Shown here: in pieces, positions 34,756-40,293 of the stretch
How the letters are laid out: each line of letters begins with the position of its first letter
How positions within the stretch are numbered: position 1 is the stretch's first letter
From: Desulfopila sp. IMCC35008
Lineage (GTDB): Bacteria > Desulfobacterota > Desulfobulbia > Desulfobulbales > Desulfocapsaceae
Direction of reading: 5' to 3'
Assembly (NCBI RefSeq): GCF_010646885.2
Contig: NZ_CP050700.1
Coordinates: 656,001-720,000, forward strand
DNA: 64,000 bases
Translations under genes and position numbers: made by a program
The notes under the pieces: generated by a model
The model's input: the letters and a program-made list of their open reading frames with translations, nothing else
Told to the model about the DNA's origin: nothing
Databases searched by the model: none

Positions 34756-35676
34756 TCAGGCGATCAGATCATAGCCGCTTTCCTCGGAGAGTTCAGCCAC
34801 CTCCTTGAGGTGGGCACGCTGGACCGTAGCAACGGTGGATTCAACTTTTGCAGCCAGGGCCCTGCTGGAAAGATCGAGTTGGATAGTACAAATATTCTCG
34901 ATGGATTTTTGCTTTCTCGCCTTAGCCAGCATGCGGATGGTTCCACCTATCTCAAAAATAATTTCGCCGTTCAGGAGGATCTGAAACTTATGGGTATCAT
35001 CGACGGCAAGCAATTCTTCAACACCTTTATCAAAATAGAAGGAGAAGCTACTTGCACTCATATCGCTTATTTCAGCGGTAATGGGTTTTTTCCATTCTCT
35101 TTTGATAATTTTCACATTGAGATCCAGGCCTTTGGGTACCTTGGCGGTGTACTCCCTGGCACCGCGGACTATCCTGCCGATAGCAGGATAGTCCAGTTTC
35201 AGGACAGGCTGGTCGTCAACCTTGGTGTGTTCCTGGTAAAAGGTACCAAGTTCTATCGCATAGGAAGAGGTGAAAAAACGCAAGACAATGGTCTTGCTGT
35301 ACCTGATGTGCATATTCCCGAGTCCGGGTTCAACTGGCAGGGAAATAACATGGCTCATAGTACTGAGATATTCACCGGGACTGTACTCAGGCTCCTCTAC
35401 CTCTTCTTCTCCCTCAACGGGCTCAGGAGGAGGGGGTGGGTCATCGGCTAATCGTCCGAAATACACACGGGAATGGCTGTCGAACTGGACTTCGATAAGC
35501 TTTTCGTCAAGAAGTGCAGTCTGGAGATAGGGGAGAAAACCTGCTGCGGTGGCGATTATATTTCCTGCGTCTAATTCATCCCTGATTTCATCTTCCGTAT
35601 AAGTATCATCGGGGAAGAACATCTGTAACCGTTTTTGGATACGGTCTATTGCAGGAGCGTCAACGTTTTGGTCCAT
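34756..35676 (-). CDS. PilZ-like protein, putative c-di-GMP effector
   Basis: 306 aa, cytoplasmic. The centre resembles a PilZ barrel: KREWKKPITAEISDMSASSFSF (about residues 195-215) takes the place of the R-x3-R and D/N-x-S-x2-G motifs, though degenerate. A proline/glutamate-rich linker (PPPPPEPVEGEEEVEEPE) separates the N-terminal part. It lies 285 bp upstream of the polysaccharide operon on the same strand, a setting in which PilZ proteins often control glycan export. Nucleotide binding is uncertain because the arginines are partly replaced by lysine. Confidence 0.6.
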   Translation of the reverse strand: MDQNVDAPAIDRIQKRLQMFFPDDTYTEDEIRDELDAGNIIATAAGFLPYLQTALLDEKLIEVQFDSHSRVYFGRLADDPPPPPEPVEGEEEVEEPEYSPGEYLSTMSHVISLPVEPGLGNMHIRYSKTIVLRFFTSSYAIELGTFYQEHTKVDDQPVLKLDYPAIGRIVRGAREYTAKVPKGLDLNVKIIKREWKKPITAEISDMSASSFSFYFDKGVEELLAVDDTHKFQILLNGEIIFEIGGTIRMLAKARKQKSIENICTIQLDLSSRALAAKVESTVATVQRAHLKEVAELSEESGYDLIA

Positions 35677-36165: not shown

Positions 36166-37677
36166 ATGAACAGGCAAGTACTTGCAGTTGATAACAACGA
36201 AGTATTTATCAAACTCCTGACTCACCTTATCAAAAAGAAAGGATGGAGTGTCAAGACAGCTGTCGATGGGTTGTCAGCCCTGGAACTGCTCGAGTCATAC
36301 CAGCCTGAGATCATTTTTATTGATCTGGTCATGCCCAATATTGATGGGGAAAATCTTTGCCGGATTTTACGGGGAAAGAGTGAATTCGCCAGGACAACAT
36401 TGGTTATCCTTTCTGCAGTAGCATTTGAAGAAGGGTTGGATTTCAGGGCGTTTGGGGCCAATGCCTGTATAGCTAAAGGGCCGATAACTGAGATTGAAGG
36501 GAATATTGACCTGGTTCTTGACTATGTAGCGCAAGGGCGGGTGGAGGAGTTACCTGAAACTGTACTCGGCTATCAGCACATCTATTGCAGCACTGTGGCC
36601 CAGGAACTTCTGGAGTCCAGGAAGAATTTTGCAGTAACGCTTGATACCATGGACAATGGGTTTCTGGAGTTGTCCGGCAATAGAAAAATTGTCACCTGTA
36701 ATAGTGCCGCTGCCGCCATTCTCAATGTTGCAAAAGAATCCCTGTTGGGGACGGATGTGGTGACCCATTTTCAAGGGGACGCCGAACAGTATATTCTCGA
36801 TTCGCTCAACAGTTTTGTGGCCGATAACAATGATGTTGAATATGAGGTACCAGGGGAGGTTGCCGGCAGGAGCATCGTTATACGATTTGCCGACATACAG
36901 CTGGAGGGCAGGAGTGGTGTTGCCATGTTCTTACGGGATATTTCAACGGAGAAAAAGGCACGCCGGGAACTGCATCGTCAGATGGAACACCTGGAGGCGA
37001 TGGTTGAAGAGCGAACCGCAAGATACAGAGAGGTGAACAGAGAGCTGGAAGAGAGGATAATTGAACGTAGAAAAATGACGGAGTCTCTGGAGTTTGTTGC
37101 CCGACAGTGGAGTAAGACGTTTGATACTATCCCTGATTTTGTCTCTGTGCATGATAAAAACATGCGCTTTGCAAGGGTCAATAAGGCTTTGAGCTCTTTT
37201 TTAAAGACCCCTCCGGAAGAGTTGGTGGGTAAATATTGCTACGAAGTTATGCATGGCAGCACAGCCCCCTGGCATAATTGCCCTCATGTTCGGGCAATAA
37301 ACGAAGGGCAGACAGTAACAGAGGAGGTCGACGACCCGGCAGTCGGGATCCCGCTTCTGGTTACCTGTGCCCCGTTTTTGCACGATGACGGTAGCCTGAT
37401 GGGTTCTGTCCATGTTGCCCGCAATATTTCCCGGCAGAAAGATGCAGAACGGGAGCGGGAAGAGCTTATCATGAAGCTGGAAAAAACCTTGTCCAAAGTG
37501 AAGCAACTCAGTGGCTTCTTGCCGATTTGTGCCTCCTGTAAAAAAATTCGGGATGATCAGGGCTATTGGAGCCAGGTGGAGGAGTATGTTTCAGCCCACT
37601 CCGAGGCGGTTTTTAGCCACGGTATATGCCCAGACTGTATTAAGATATTGTATCCTGAGTTGGATATAGATGAATAA
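36166..37677 (+). CDS. Response regulator with two PAS-like domains and a four-cysteine tail
   Basis: 503 aa, soluble. The receiver domain at 1-120 has phosphoacceptor D53 in FIDLVMPNID. A PAS-like domain (about 145-265) is followed by a long coiled coil (HRQMEHLEAMVEERTARYRE) and a second PAS domain (about 310-430) with a redox-prone CYEVMHGSTAPWHNCPH. The tail has C455, C458, C488 and C491 in the pattern LPICASCKKIRDDQGYW...FSHGICPDC. This tail recurs in signalling proteins of this bacterial group and probably binds zinc. There is no kinase or DNA-binding domain. It could signal by protein contact. Confidence 0.88.
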   Translation: MNRQVLAVDNNEVFIKLLTHLIKKKGWSVKTAVDGLSALELLESYQPEIIFIDLVMPNIDGENLCRILRGKSEFARTTLVILSAVAFEEGLDFRAFGANACIAKGPITEIEGNIDLVLDYVAQGRVEELPETVLGYQHIYCSTVAQELLESRKNFAVTLDTMDNGFLELSGNRKIVTCNSAAAAILNVAKESLLGTDVVTHFQGDAEQYILDSLNSFVADNNDVEYEVPGEVAGRSIVIRFADIQLEGRSGVAMFLRDISTEKKARRELHRQMEHLEAMVEERTARYREVNRELEERIIERRKMTESLEFVARQWSKTFDTIPDFVSVHDKNMRFARVNKALSSFLKTPPEELVGKYCYEVMHGSTAPWHNCPHVRAINEGQTVTEEVDDPAVGIPLLVTCAPFLHDDGSLMGSVHVARNISRQKDAEREREELIMKLEKTLSKVKQLSGFLPICASCKKIRDDQGYWSQVEEYVSAHSEAVFSHGICPDCIKILYPELDIDE

Positions 37678-37990: not shown

Positions 37991-38494
37991 ATGTTTGGAA
38001 GAGTTGCTGTTGCCAGTGCTGTGCTCGTCATAACAATTTTTTCCATGTTGCCCATCTCGTTGCAAGCCACAGAAGCAGACGGGAGTGCAATAATTAAGCT
38101 CCAGGGAAGCATCAGTCAGGGAAACAAGAAACGGATAACGGTGGCTGAACTTGAAGATCTTGGTGTCATCACTGTAGAGATAAACGATCCTTTTGAGAAA
38201 AAGAAAAACAGTTTTACCGGGGTCATGATGGAAAAGTTCGTGACTCATTATGGAAATACTGGTGTGAAGAGTGTCTCTTTCTTCGCGATTGACGGCTACC
38301 AGATAACCTTTTCCCGGGCTAACTGGGCCTCTCACAAAATCATGGTCGCGACTCGTGTCAACGATAAATATATGGACTATGAAAACAAGGGGCCGTTACG
38401 AATTGTTTATCCGGAATATGATCCGGACAAACACGATTCCAAGGAGATCTTACCGAAGTGGATATGGATGATAACAACCGTAAAATTCAGGTAG
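37991..38494 (+). CDS. Exported molybdopterin-oxidoreductase-fold protein without catalytic cysteine
   Basis: 167 aa with a signal peptide (1-26, ending LQATEA). The remainder resembles the SUOX/YedY molybdopterin-binding fold in its short periplasmic form (SFFAIDGYQITFSRANW, then GPLRIVYPEYDP, then WIWMITTVKF). The mature protein has no cysteine at all, so the molybdenum ligand is absent and enzymatic activity is unlikely. It overlaps the following sensor-kinase gene by 37 bp, implying coupled translation. It may act as a periplasmic ligand-sensing partner of that kinase. Confidence 0.75.
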   Translation: MFGRVAVASAVLVITIFSMLPISLQATEADGSAIIKLQGSISQGNKKRITVAELEDLGVITVEINDPFEKKKNSFTGVMMEKFVTHYGNTGVKSVSFFAIDGYQITFSRANWASHKIMVATRVNDKYMDYENKGPLRIVYPEYDPDKHDSKEILPKWIWMITTVKFR

Positions 38495-40293
38495 ATCCTG
38501 TTACGAAAACGATCATCTTCCTTGTTTTCCTGGTCATTGTGGGGATTTCGGTCTCGTCTTATATATACACCTCTGCTCTTCTTCCCGAGCAGGAACACAT
38601 TTCCAACCAGTTCAATCGTCTCAGCGCGGAGATGCGCCACACCTTCAAAGTTGAGAGTCTCAACCATAAGGCGTTTGATTCGTATCTGACAGCTCTGTTG
38701 CGTAAAGATCCTGAGATGGTTGGCGAATCTATTGATTACTTGAGTGCTTCCCTGGGATTTATCAATGTTGAATATTTTGATAATGATTCCTTGGTTAATA
38801 TTGTTGCCCCTCTTGTGGTAGGGGCGAAAGAGAAGATTGGAGCATATGAACTTCAACCGGGCAATGCCGGCCTTGTTGAGGTTAGGGAGGTTTTTTCAAA
38901 TATTTTTAATGAAATCAGTTTAATAGAAAAAGATATCAATATCGGGGTGCAGGGGCTTTATACCTGGCAACAGCAGATCCGGGAAAAATGGCAGTATTTT
39001 TTCCTGCTTGTCACAGCAACAGCCCTGGTCGGTTTTCTTATCATTTCAATACTGGCATGGAAGCAGCGTGTACTGATTAAGAGGCTATGGCGAAACGACC
39101 AGAAATTACGGATTAAGATTGAGGAAAAAAAGCGCGCTGAAGCGGAAAAGGAAAACCTTGCTGAGCAACTGTACCATGCCCGGAAAATGGAATCGATCGG
39201 ACTCATGGCTGGTGGTGTGGCCCATGATCTCAATAATATCCTCTCGGGCATTGTCGGCTACCCGGAACTGTTATTGATGGATCTGCCGGAGGAGAGCCAT
39301 ATGAGGCAACCACTTGTGGCGATTCATGATTCTGGCAAGAGGGCCGCCCAGGTGGTTGAAGACTTGTTGACTGTTGCCCGTGGATCAATAAATATCAAGG
39401 AACATCATAATCTGGTGTCCATTATCAGGGAGTACTTTGCATCGCCCGAGTTTCAGAAACTCAAAAAGTTTCACCCCCTGGTATCTTTTGAGCATCGGTA
39501 CGATTGCCCGGAAGCCTGGGTACTCTGCTCTTCCGTCCATGTGAAAAAATGTGTAATGAATCTTGTACATAACGGTGCAGAAGCGGTTGAGGGCCGTGGT
39601 ACGGTAATAATTACCATTAAAAGTAATTGCCGGGGAGAGGGTGATACCGGTGCGTATGTGGTTCTTGATGTCCTTGATTCGGGACCTGGCATCGTAGAGC
39701 AGGATCTGGAGCACATCTTTGATCCATTCTACAGTAAAAAGGAAATGGGGCGGAGTGGTACAGGACTGGGCCTTACTGTTGTCTGGAACACCATGGAGGA
39801 CCACAAAGGTAAGGTGGAGGTTGATAATACAGATGCGGGGACACGATTTCGCCTGTTTTTTCCTATGATTTGCAAAGTAGAAAATATCAGGAGTGTTCCT
39901 GGCGCTCAATCAGATCTTACCGGTAACGGGGAGCATATTCTTGTGGTAGACGATGAGAAACAGCTGCGCGATTTGTCGGAGCGGATGCTGGGTGCGGTGG
40001 GCTATGAGGTGAAGACAGTGTCTTCCGGTGAGGAGGCTGTGGAGTACCTGCAACAGGCGTCCGCCGACCTGGTTGTCCTTGATATGTTGATGAAGCCGGG
40101 AATGGACGGTCTACAGACGTACCGGGAAATCGTTGGTATCCATCCGGGACAAAAAGCAATTATTACCAGTGGCTTCTCTGAGAGTGACGATGTGAAAGAA
40201 GTAATGAAACTTGGGGCTGCAAAGTTTATCAGGAAGCCATATACCATCAACCAGTTGAGTCAGGGTGTTAAGGATGTCCTGAGTGCTGATTGA
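38458..40293 (+). CDS. Hybrid sensor histidine kinase with receiver domain
   Basis: 611 aa. Two membrane helices (about 18-40 and 180-200) bracket a 140-residue periplasmic sensor. A linker leads to the H-box GLMAGGVAHDLNNIL (H256), then an N-box with LVHNGAEAV and G-boxes DSGPGI and GTGLGLTVV. A C-terminal receiver domain (about 490-608) carries LVVDDE and VLDMLMKPG. Start is GTG at 38458 or ATG at 38464. It overlaps the molybdopterin-fold gene, suggesting that this partner feeds its sensor. No output regulator is adjacent. Confidence 0.92.
   Translation: MDMDDNNRKIQVDPVTKTIIFLVFLVIVGISVSSYIYTSALLPEQEHISNQFNRLSAEMRHTFKVESLNHKAFDSYLTALLRKDPEMVGESIDYLSASLGFINVEYFDNDSLVNIVAPLVVGAKEKIGAYELQPGNAGLVEVREVFSNIFNEISLIEKDINIGVQGLYTWQQQIREKWQYFFLLVTATALVGFLIISILAWKQRVLIKRLWRNDQKLRIKIEEKKRAEAEKENLAEQLYHARKMESIGLMAGGVAHDLNNILSGIVGYPELLLMDLPEESHMRQPLVAIHDSGKRAAQVVEDLLTVARGSINIKEHHNLVSIIREYFASPEFQKLKKFHPLVSFEHRYDCPEAWVLCSSVHVKKCVMNLVHNGAEAVEGRGTVIITIKSNCRGEGDTGAYVVLDVLDSGPGIVEQDLEHIFDPFYSKKEMGRSGTGLGLTVVWNTMEDHKGKVEVDNTDAGTRFRLFFPMICKVENIRSVPGAQSDLTGNGEHILVVDDEKQLRDLSERMLGAVGYEVKTVSSGEEAVEYLQQASADLVVLDMLMKPGMDGLQTYREIVGIHPGQKAIITSGFSESDDVKEVMKLGAAKFIRKPYTINQLSQGVKDVLSAD

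Follow-up and report, generated by a model that had tools for sequence, protein, structure and literature searches.

The protein encoded at positions 36166–37677 (plus strand) of the window, the 64,000-nucleotide stretch of Desulfopila sp. IMCC35008 DNA analyzed here, ends in a four-cysteine tail that is a real and widespread module, probably an output, absent from the family libraries used; the wiring of the protein is ordinary, and its output part is new. We judge it reasonably probable that the tail is an output module carrying a putative Zn(Cys)4 site, presumably dimeric, switched by the coiled coil preceding it, and binding a postulated common partner. Any census of bacterial signaling counts known output domains, and the Pfam and NCBIfam copies used omit this frequent module; proteins bearing it therefore look like sensors without an output.

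Domain Architecture of the Receiver-PAS-Tail Protein

The gene has an ATG start and encodes a protein of 503 residues (label P0001). All of its parts lie on the plus strand: a receiver (REC; residues 5–104, 36178–36477; PF00072, 8.4e-15), a first PAS domain (residues 158–207, 36637–36786, being the part covered by Pfam; PF13188, PAS_8, 1.1e-5), a second PAS domain (residues 319–425, 37120–37440; PF08448, PAS_4, 1.1e-13), a predicted coiled-coil linker (residues 421–450, 37426–37515), and the four-cysteine tail module (residues 451–497, 37516–37656). A charged coil separates the two PAS domains, and a short coil separates the second of them from the tail. The earlier note had described a REC-PAS-coil-PAS order ending in the tail, without kinase or DNA-binding domain, and both points were borne out: the 12 Pfam families listed for P0001 at E ≤ 1 include no kinase, GGDEF, or DNA-binding family. 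At the same threshold, P0001 has neither the HisKA/HATPase_c core of a histidine kinase nor the GGDEF domain of a diguanylate cyclase, and PF01475 (FUR), the mark of the Fur family, is matched by neither P0001 nor its tail.

The receiver assignment is supported by the Pfam match together with D53 (in IDLVMP), S83, and K104, each within its motif; the acidic pair is D9-N10, with the second acidic residue replaced by N10. We take D53 to be the likely phospho-acceptor, the roles of D53, K104, and the acidic pair being assigned from general knowledge of receivers. In the tail, the sequence gives a first CxxC pair at C455 and C458 (37528–37539) and a second at C488 and C491 (37627–37638), that is, CxxC-x29-CxxC, so that the spacing previously put at about 30 residues is exactly 29.

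The tail alone yielded at most chance-level Pfam matches (best E 0.013), no NCBIfam match, no convincing match among PDB sequences (best 0.034; best by profile 0.05), and a best E of 0.053 against PHROGs. Searching titles and abstracts by motif string or topic, with subscription papers and preprints outside the scope, returned nothing on the tail; the matches listed for CX2CX29CX2C-type strings are papillomavirus and other virus work. The description of the tail as a shared, undescribed module thus stands with respect to the Pfam and NCBIfam copies used. With a single tail as query, no phage was matched, and one plasmid record and three IMG/VR contigs were; a phage or plasmid origin was rejected on these grounds.

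Distribution and Conservation of the Tail

With its 16 other matches in this genome, all at E ≤ 1.3e-8, the tail is found at 17 loci in total and is therefore not a chance ending. These 17 tails terminate proteins with very different N-terminal parts, among them receivers, PAS, SBP_bac_3, and Phosphonate-bd domains. A profile built from 16 of the 17, a check that the earlier note had called for, was found to detect the tail across the phylum, in 190 of 395 sampled genomes and in 129 of 246 genera, with up to 16 candidates scored per genome. A scan of species genomes, in which loci were located through exact peptides such as IRDDKGYW, gave at least 573 confirmed stretches, with 80 loci among the matches listed. 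For the loci listed, the labels name Desulfobacterota groups, Acidobacteria including Geothrix, Nitrospirae, Nitrospinae, Verrucomicrobia, Bacteroidetes, Spirochaetales, Zixibacteria, and Aegiribacteria; many of these genomes are metagenome bins, and phylum names are given as labeled. The 14 genomes chosen as positives carry 1 to 19 tail matches each, for example 19 in Desulfopila aestuarii, 13 in Desulfogranum japonicum, 11 in an Aegiribacteria bin, and 9 in a Geothrix.

Both CxxC pairs are present in 204 of 207 tail ORFs (124 of 127 in a smaller set), with a spacing of 29 in 203 and of 35 in one. The remaining three are L011, in which Tyr takes the place of the fourth Cys, a truncated second ORF at L045, and a false short match, L275. 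Since the scan relied on exact peptides, conservation was recounted on profile-selected rows, namely 125 of the 127 ORFs drawn from the same genome and the strongest matches of the phylum survey. I454 and W468 occur in 125 of 125 rows, H485 in 124, and R462, D464, and E472 in 122; the rows were cut out by the cysteine pattern, which fixes the cysteine columns by selection, so that the fair cysteine counts are 124 of 127 and 204 of 207. The pattern suggests that R462, D464, W468, E472, and H485 form a binding face, their exposure at the surface being presumed. Strong conservation could instead come from recent spread of the tail as a cassette.

Two copies in the same genome depart from the common form. 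L011 (C1:1480672–1480821) lies in an 85-residue frame that adjoins an in-frame TGA and has Tyr at the C491 position; it is probably a decayed copy. In L016 (C1:4827427–4827591), a REC-tail protein, six residues are inserted between the two CxxC pairs, the sole case of x35 spacing seen.

Terminal Position, Sensor Inputs, and a Kinase-Bearing Paralog

Wherever the 3′ end is visible, in 204 of 204 distinct ORFs, the tail is followed by 32 residues or fewer, and no fusion beyond it was found among these ORFs. What precedes it is the usual sensor repertoire, which answers the question of domain partners raised earlier. In a Pfam census of 127 tail ORFs, the 25 of 58 families listed include REC (21), HAMP (9), dCache_1 (7), Tll0287 (5), Reg_prop (4), Y_Y_Y (4), MASE3 (3), Phosphonate-bd (3), and SBP_bac_3 (3); PAS and GAF are also among the inputs, as are Cache domains, periplasmic binding domains, and propellers. 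Ten long tail proteins that were examined singly (ten of the longest, not strictly the ten longest) contain no kinase. Furthermore, the PhnD-type sensor of one tail protein of the same genome, L009, has a 34% identical paralog whose frame of 1033 residues runs from the sensor through PAS-like segments to a HisKA and ATPase core. In this paralog, a kinase occupies the position held by the tail in L009. The anatomy fits the earlier proposal that the tail is an output, located where a kinase or cyclase would otherwise stand.

Occupying that place is also what one would expect of a degenerate histidine kinase or GGDEF remnant, and the FSHxI of the tail recalls an H-box, a likeness that we take to be superficial. 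The tail has, however, no kinase or GGDEF match in Pfam at E ≤ 1, its structural model contains beta strands, and its four cysteines fall within about 50 residues. At E ≤ 10, a kinase-core HMM gave no match in the 207 tail ORFs; the same HMM matched 48 neighboring genes, which serve as a positive control of the tool but not as an independent one, as they include the 41 sequences used to build it. The origin that the earlier note had named as fatal to its proposal is thus unsupported, and we rejected it as hardly credible.

Heptad Phasing of the Linker

The distance from the PAS-end motif D[IVL][ST] to the PIC of the tail takes the values 12, 19, 26, 33, and 40—all equal to 5 modulo 7—in 65 of 76 motif hits, one of the 65 (L285) being a chance motif inside the coil. 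A length of 33, which is also that from N420 at the PAS end of P0001 to P453 of its tail, accounts for 59 of the 76. Of the 11 hits out of phase, four have a length of 72, three of 16, two of 53, and one each of 50 and 10. Those that appear to be real PAS ends are the four linkers of 72, equal to 2 modulo 7, and the divergent L146 with 10; the other six look like motifs in the coil or in GAF/HAMP-like segments. The 72-residue linkers (L051, L091, L268, and L314) are of two sequence types.

Receivers show a corresponding rule. In 14 of 17, the distance from the receiver Lys to the tail is 32, 39, 46, 53, or 60, all equal to 4 modulo 7, and L012, which the receiver pattern missed, has 25, likewise 4 modulo 7. 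Three receivers of one subtype have 40, 40, and 47, which are 5 modulo 7 and again seven apart; L253 (67) was left out of the count, not being a receiver. The GAF linker has a single length, 36, and so carries no phase information; it was measured in 13 of 17 motif hits, and the other four do not seem to mark the end of a GAF domain. Given the kinship among many members, it is the distinct lengths that count as evidence, namely five in phase for PAS and five or six for REC.

The residues of the linker follow the same period. In P0001, the a-x-x-d-e-x-x repeats are marked by L434 and I435, L438, T441 and L442, V445, and L448, and the structural model has a helix here. Across the 125 rows, large hydrophobic residues occupy positions 438 and 445 in 95 and 98%, respectively, with Leu/Ile at 434/435, Ala/Leu at 441/442, and Leu at 448, so that a corresponds to 438 and 445, d to 434, 441, and 448, and e to 435 and 442. 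Exceptions apart, linker lengths are thus quantized by seven, as in coiled-coil-actuated modules, and we infer that the tail is a dimeric module of this kind. The heptad rule would also make it feasible to fuse the tail to receivers or PAS domains already known as inputs.

Neighboring Genes and Candidate Partners

A hybrid histidine kinase of HisKA-HATPase_c-REC order (38458–40293, plus strand) begins about 0.8 kb downstream of the tail gene, after an Oxidored_molyb-like gene, and its nearness makes it a possible phosphodonor that may phosphorylate the receiver of P0001. Upstream, on the minus strand, lies an ORF of 306 residues (34756–35676) with no Pfam match at E ≤ 0.01. Across the genome, 6 of the 17 tail loci are within 3 kb of a HisKA domain against 2.1 expected, a number reached by 0.9% of circular shifts.

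A Pfam census of 55 of the 56 close same-strand neighbors (that of L121 was dropped for masked bases) gave, among the 25 of 84 families listed, REC (12), HATPase_c (11), HisKA (9), Phosphonate-bd (5), and URO-D (3). The histidine kinase, REC, and PAS neighbors may be input partners, and the Phosphonate-bd and URO-D neighbors appear to serve a local input or pathway. At L083, L110, and L120, a GAF-like tail gene lies close downstream of a URO-D-type gene, which another shared gene immediately precedes, so that this local arrangement recurs. At L021, L070, L087, L095, L104, and L141, the upstream gene, separated by a short gap, starts like a periplasmic or lipoprotein binding protein; these genes probably encode paired input proteins.

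All-against-all clustering of 1019 predicted genes from 99 regions, in 95 of which the gene calling recovered a tail gene, produced one large cluster present in 43 regions, a second in 9, and the rest in 5 or fewer. Judged from its members and the Pfam census, the large cluster is histidine kinase/REC; the second is an ABC-type ATPase by sequence. Neither the clustering nor the 55-gene census revealed a constant output partner, and a fixed operon partner was rejected, the largest cluster other than histidine kinase/REC occurring in only 9 of the 99 regions.

The lack of a constant neighboring gene also weighs against the tail being a DNA- or RNA-binding zinc finger, in which case the proteins would be one-component or response-regulator transcription factors. 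The Lys and Arg residues conserved in this Cys4 unit (K459, K460, and R462) would suit such a role, but no DNA-binding Pfam family is matched, and members with periplasmic binding domains are probably membrane-anchored, which would be unusual for a DNA-binding output. We regard nucleic acid binding as quite improbable.

Predicted Fold and the Four-Cysteine Site

AlphaFold models coil plus tail as helix, strands, helix, strand, and helix (mean pLDDT 81), with the first helix at model residues 2–29, that is, residues 417–444 of P0001; the tail alone is modeled as strand, helix, strand, and helix (mean pLDDT 85). In Foldseek, the top match of the coil-plus-tail model was PerR, a weak one (prob 0.63, E 0.18), and weak pre-60S ribosome rows were also matched; the tail-only model gave no credible PDB match, and PerR was not listed. 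These searches do not amount to evidence for a new fold. Profile comparison of the tails of this genome with 25 Fur-family C-terminal domains scored 33.2 (prob 92.4), and two other tail alignments scored 30.6 and 32.7, with 40 columns and both CxxC pairs aligned. Of 300 column shuffles that preserved the cysteines, none reached the Fur score (maximum 26.9, vs. 33.3 and 32.8). Scores for other families were 23.8 to 25.0 for DksA, 19.3 for the adenylate-kinase lid, and 15.5 for NrdR. Among the families tried, a Fur-like Zn(Cys)4 unit is thus the best resemblance, a suggestive likeness and not a demonstration of homology. From the cysteine pattern, we infer that the tail binds zinc.

The same cysteines could, alternatively, form a redox switch of the dithiol/disulfide type that releases zinc upon oxidation, making the tail a sensor and not an output. 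The PDB entry title of the PerR match (E 0.18) names a Zn(Cys)4 structural redox switch, and many of the labeled hosts are sulfate reducers, which are anaerobes. The PerR match is, however, lost once the coil is removed, and the tail comes last in 204 of 204 ORFs, after recognizable sensor domains wherever Pfam matches. The conserved W, R, D, E, and H also exceed the needs of a redox site, and a phase-locked coil better fits a receiver of a signal than its source. We consider this reading unlikely.

Another possibility is that the tail is a structural cap, a zinc clamp that keeps the coil dimeric and places the sensor domains, with no partner of its own. The Fur C-terminal unit, which serves dimerization in Fur, would be a natural model for such a clamp, being the best profile match at 33.3 against at most 25.0 for the three other Zn(Cys)4 families. 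Yet a cap would leave the proteins of 17 loci in one genome with no output at all, R, D, W, E, and H are more strongly conserved than a cap would require, and in the L009 paralog a kinase takes the tail's position. We give the cap little credence, about the same as the redox switch.

Proposed Mechanism and Implications

The preferred reading, a coil-actuated Zn(Cys)4 output, draws together the joining of one tail to many inputs, its terminal position, the kinase found in its place in one paralog, the linker phase, the coil pattern, the conservation, and a viral zinc precedent described below. The tail would act in bacterial sensory proteins as a small output domain that is autonomous. Two chains would form a parallel two-stranded coiled coil, each ending in a fixed Zn(Cys)4 unit (CxxC-x29-CxxC). 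Input—phosphorylation of a REC domain, or a signal at a PAS, GAF, Cache, or periplasmic binding domain—would alter how the coil is registered or rotated, and thereby rearrange the two tails of the dimer. Through R462, D464, W468, E472, and H485, the tails would then capture or let go of a single conserved partner, and numerous sensors in a cell would in this way report to the same target.

More tentatively, as many as about 20 sensors per cell, in Desulfobacterota, Acidobacteriota, Nitrospirota, and other groups, may converge through this putatively zinc-bearing, coil-switched tail on a single hub protein or ligand, although we lean slightly against so broad a claim. If it is true, the tails would mark a whole unrecognized signaling pathway, parallel to the c-di-GMP and phosphorelay networks. 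If all tails share one partner, a single pull-down could map the sensors of the 17 loci of one genome.

Comparison with Known Systems

Like the tail, the C-terminal dimerization unit of Fur and PerR has two CxxC pairs, both of which are matched in the profile alignment. The pairs are separated by 36 residues in Fur/PerR, vs. 29 in the tail, and the tail further differs in having no FUR Pfam match, a structure-search E of only 0.18, and no PerR match for the tail-only model. In the DksA/TraR zinc finger (PF01258), much as predicted for the tail proteins, a helical coil leads into a Zn(Cys)4 knuckle; its spacing is shorter than that of the tail, its score lies below that of Fur, and only 14 to 26 columns could be aligned.

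The exact CXXC-X29-CXXC spacing is shared with the zinc-binding domains of papillomavirus E6, in which this motif is reported to coordinate zinc (PMC3640046). E6 chains are not listed among the PDB matches of the tail at E ≤ 10, by sequence or by profile, and the likeness in spacing is presumed to be convergence, a precedent for the metal and not for kinship.

In overall design, the tail proteins resemble the Rec-GGDEF and PAS-GGDEF cyclases, for example DgcR, which likewise join an input through a heptad coil linker to a C-terminal output. In the DgcR report, Rec-GGDEF linkers are described whose lengths are multiples of 7 and which carry a-x-x-d-e-x-x repeats, with crystal structures showing a switch in coil register (PMC8041772), and a second study gives length differences in multiples of seven for most phytochrome cyclases (PMC9587094). 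The two designs differ in what stands at the end: a cyclase in the Rec-GGDEF and PAS-GGDEF proteins, and a 50-residue Cys4 module in the tail proteins.
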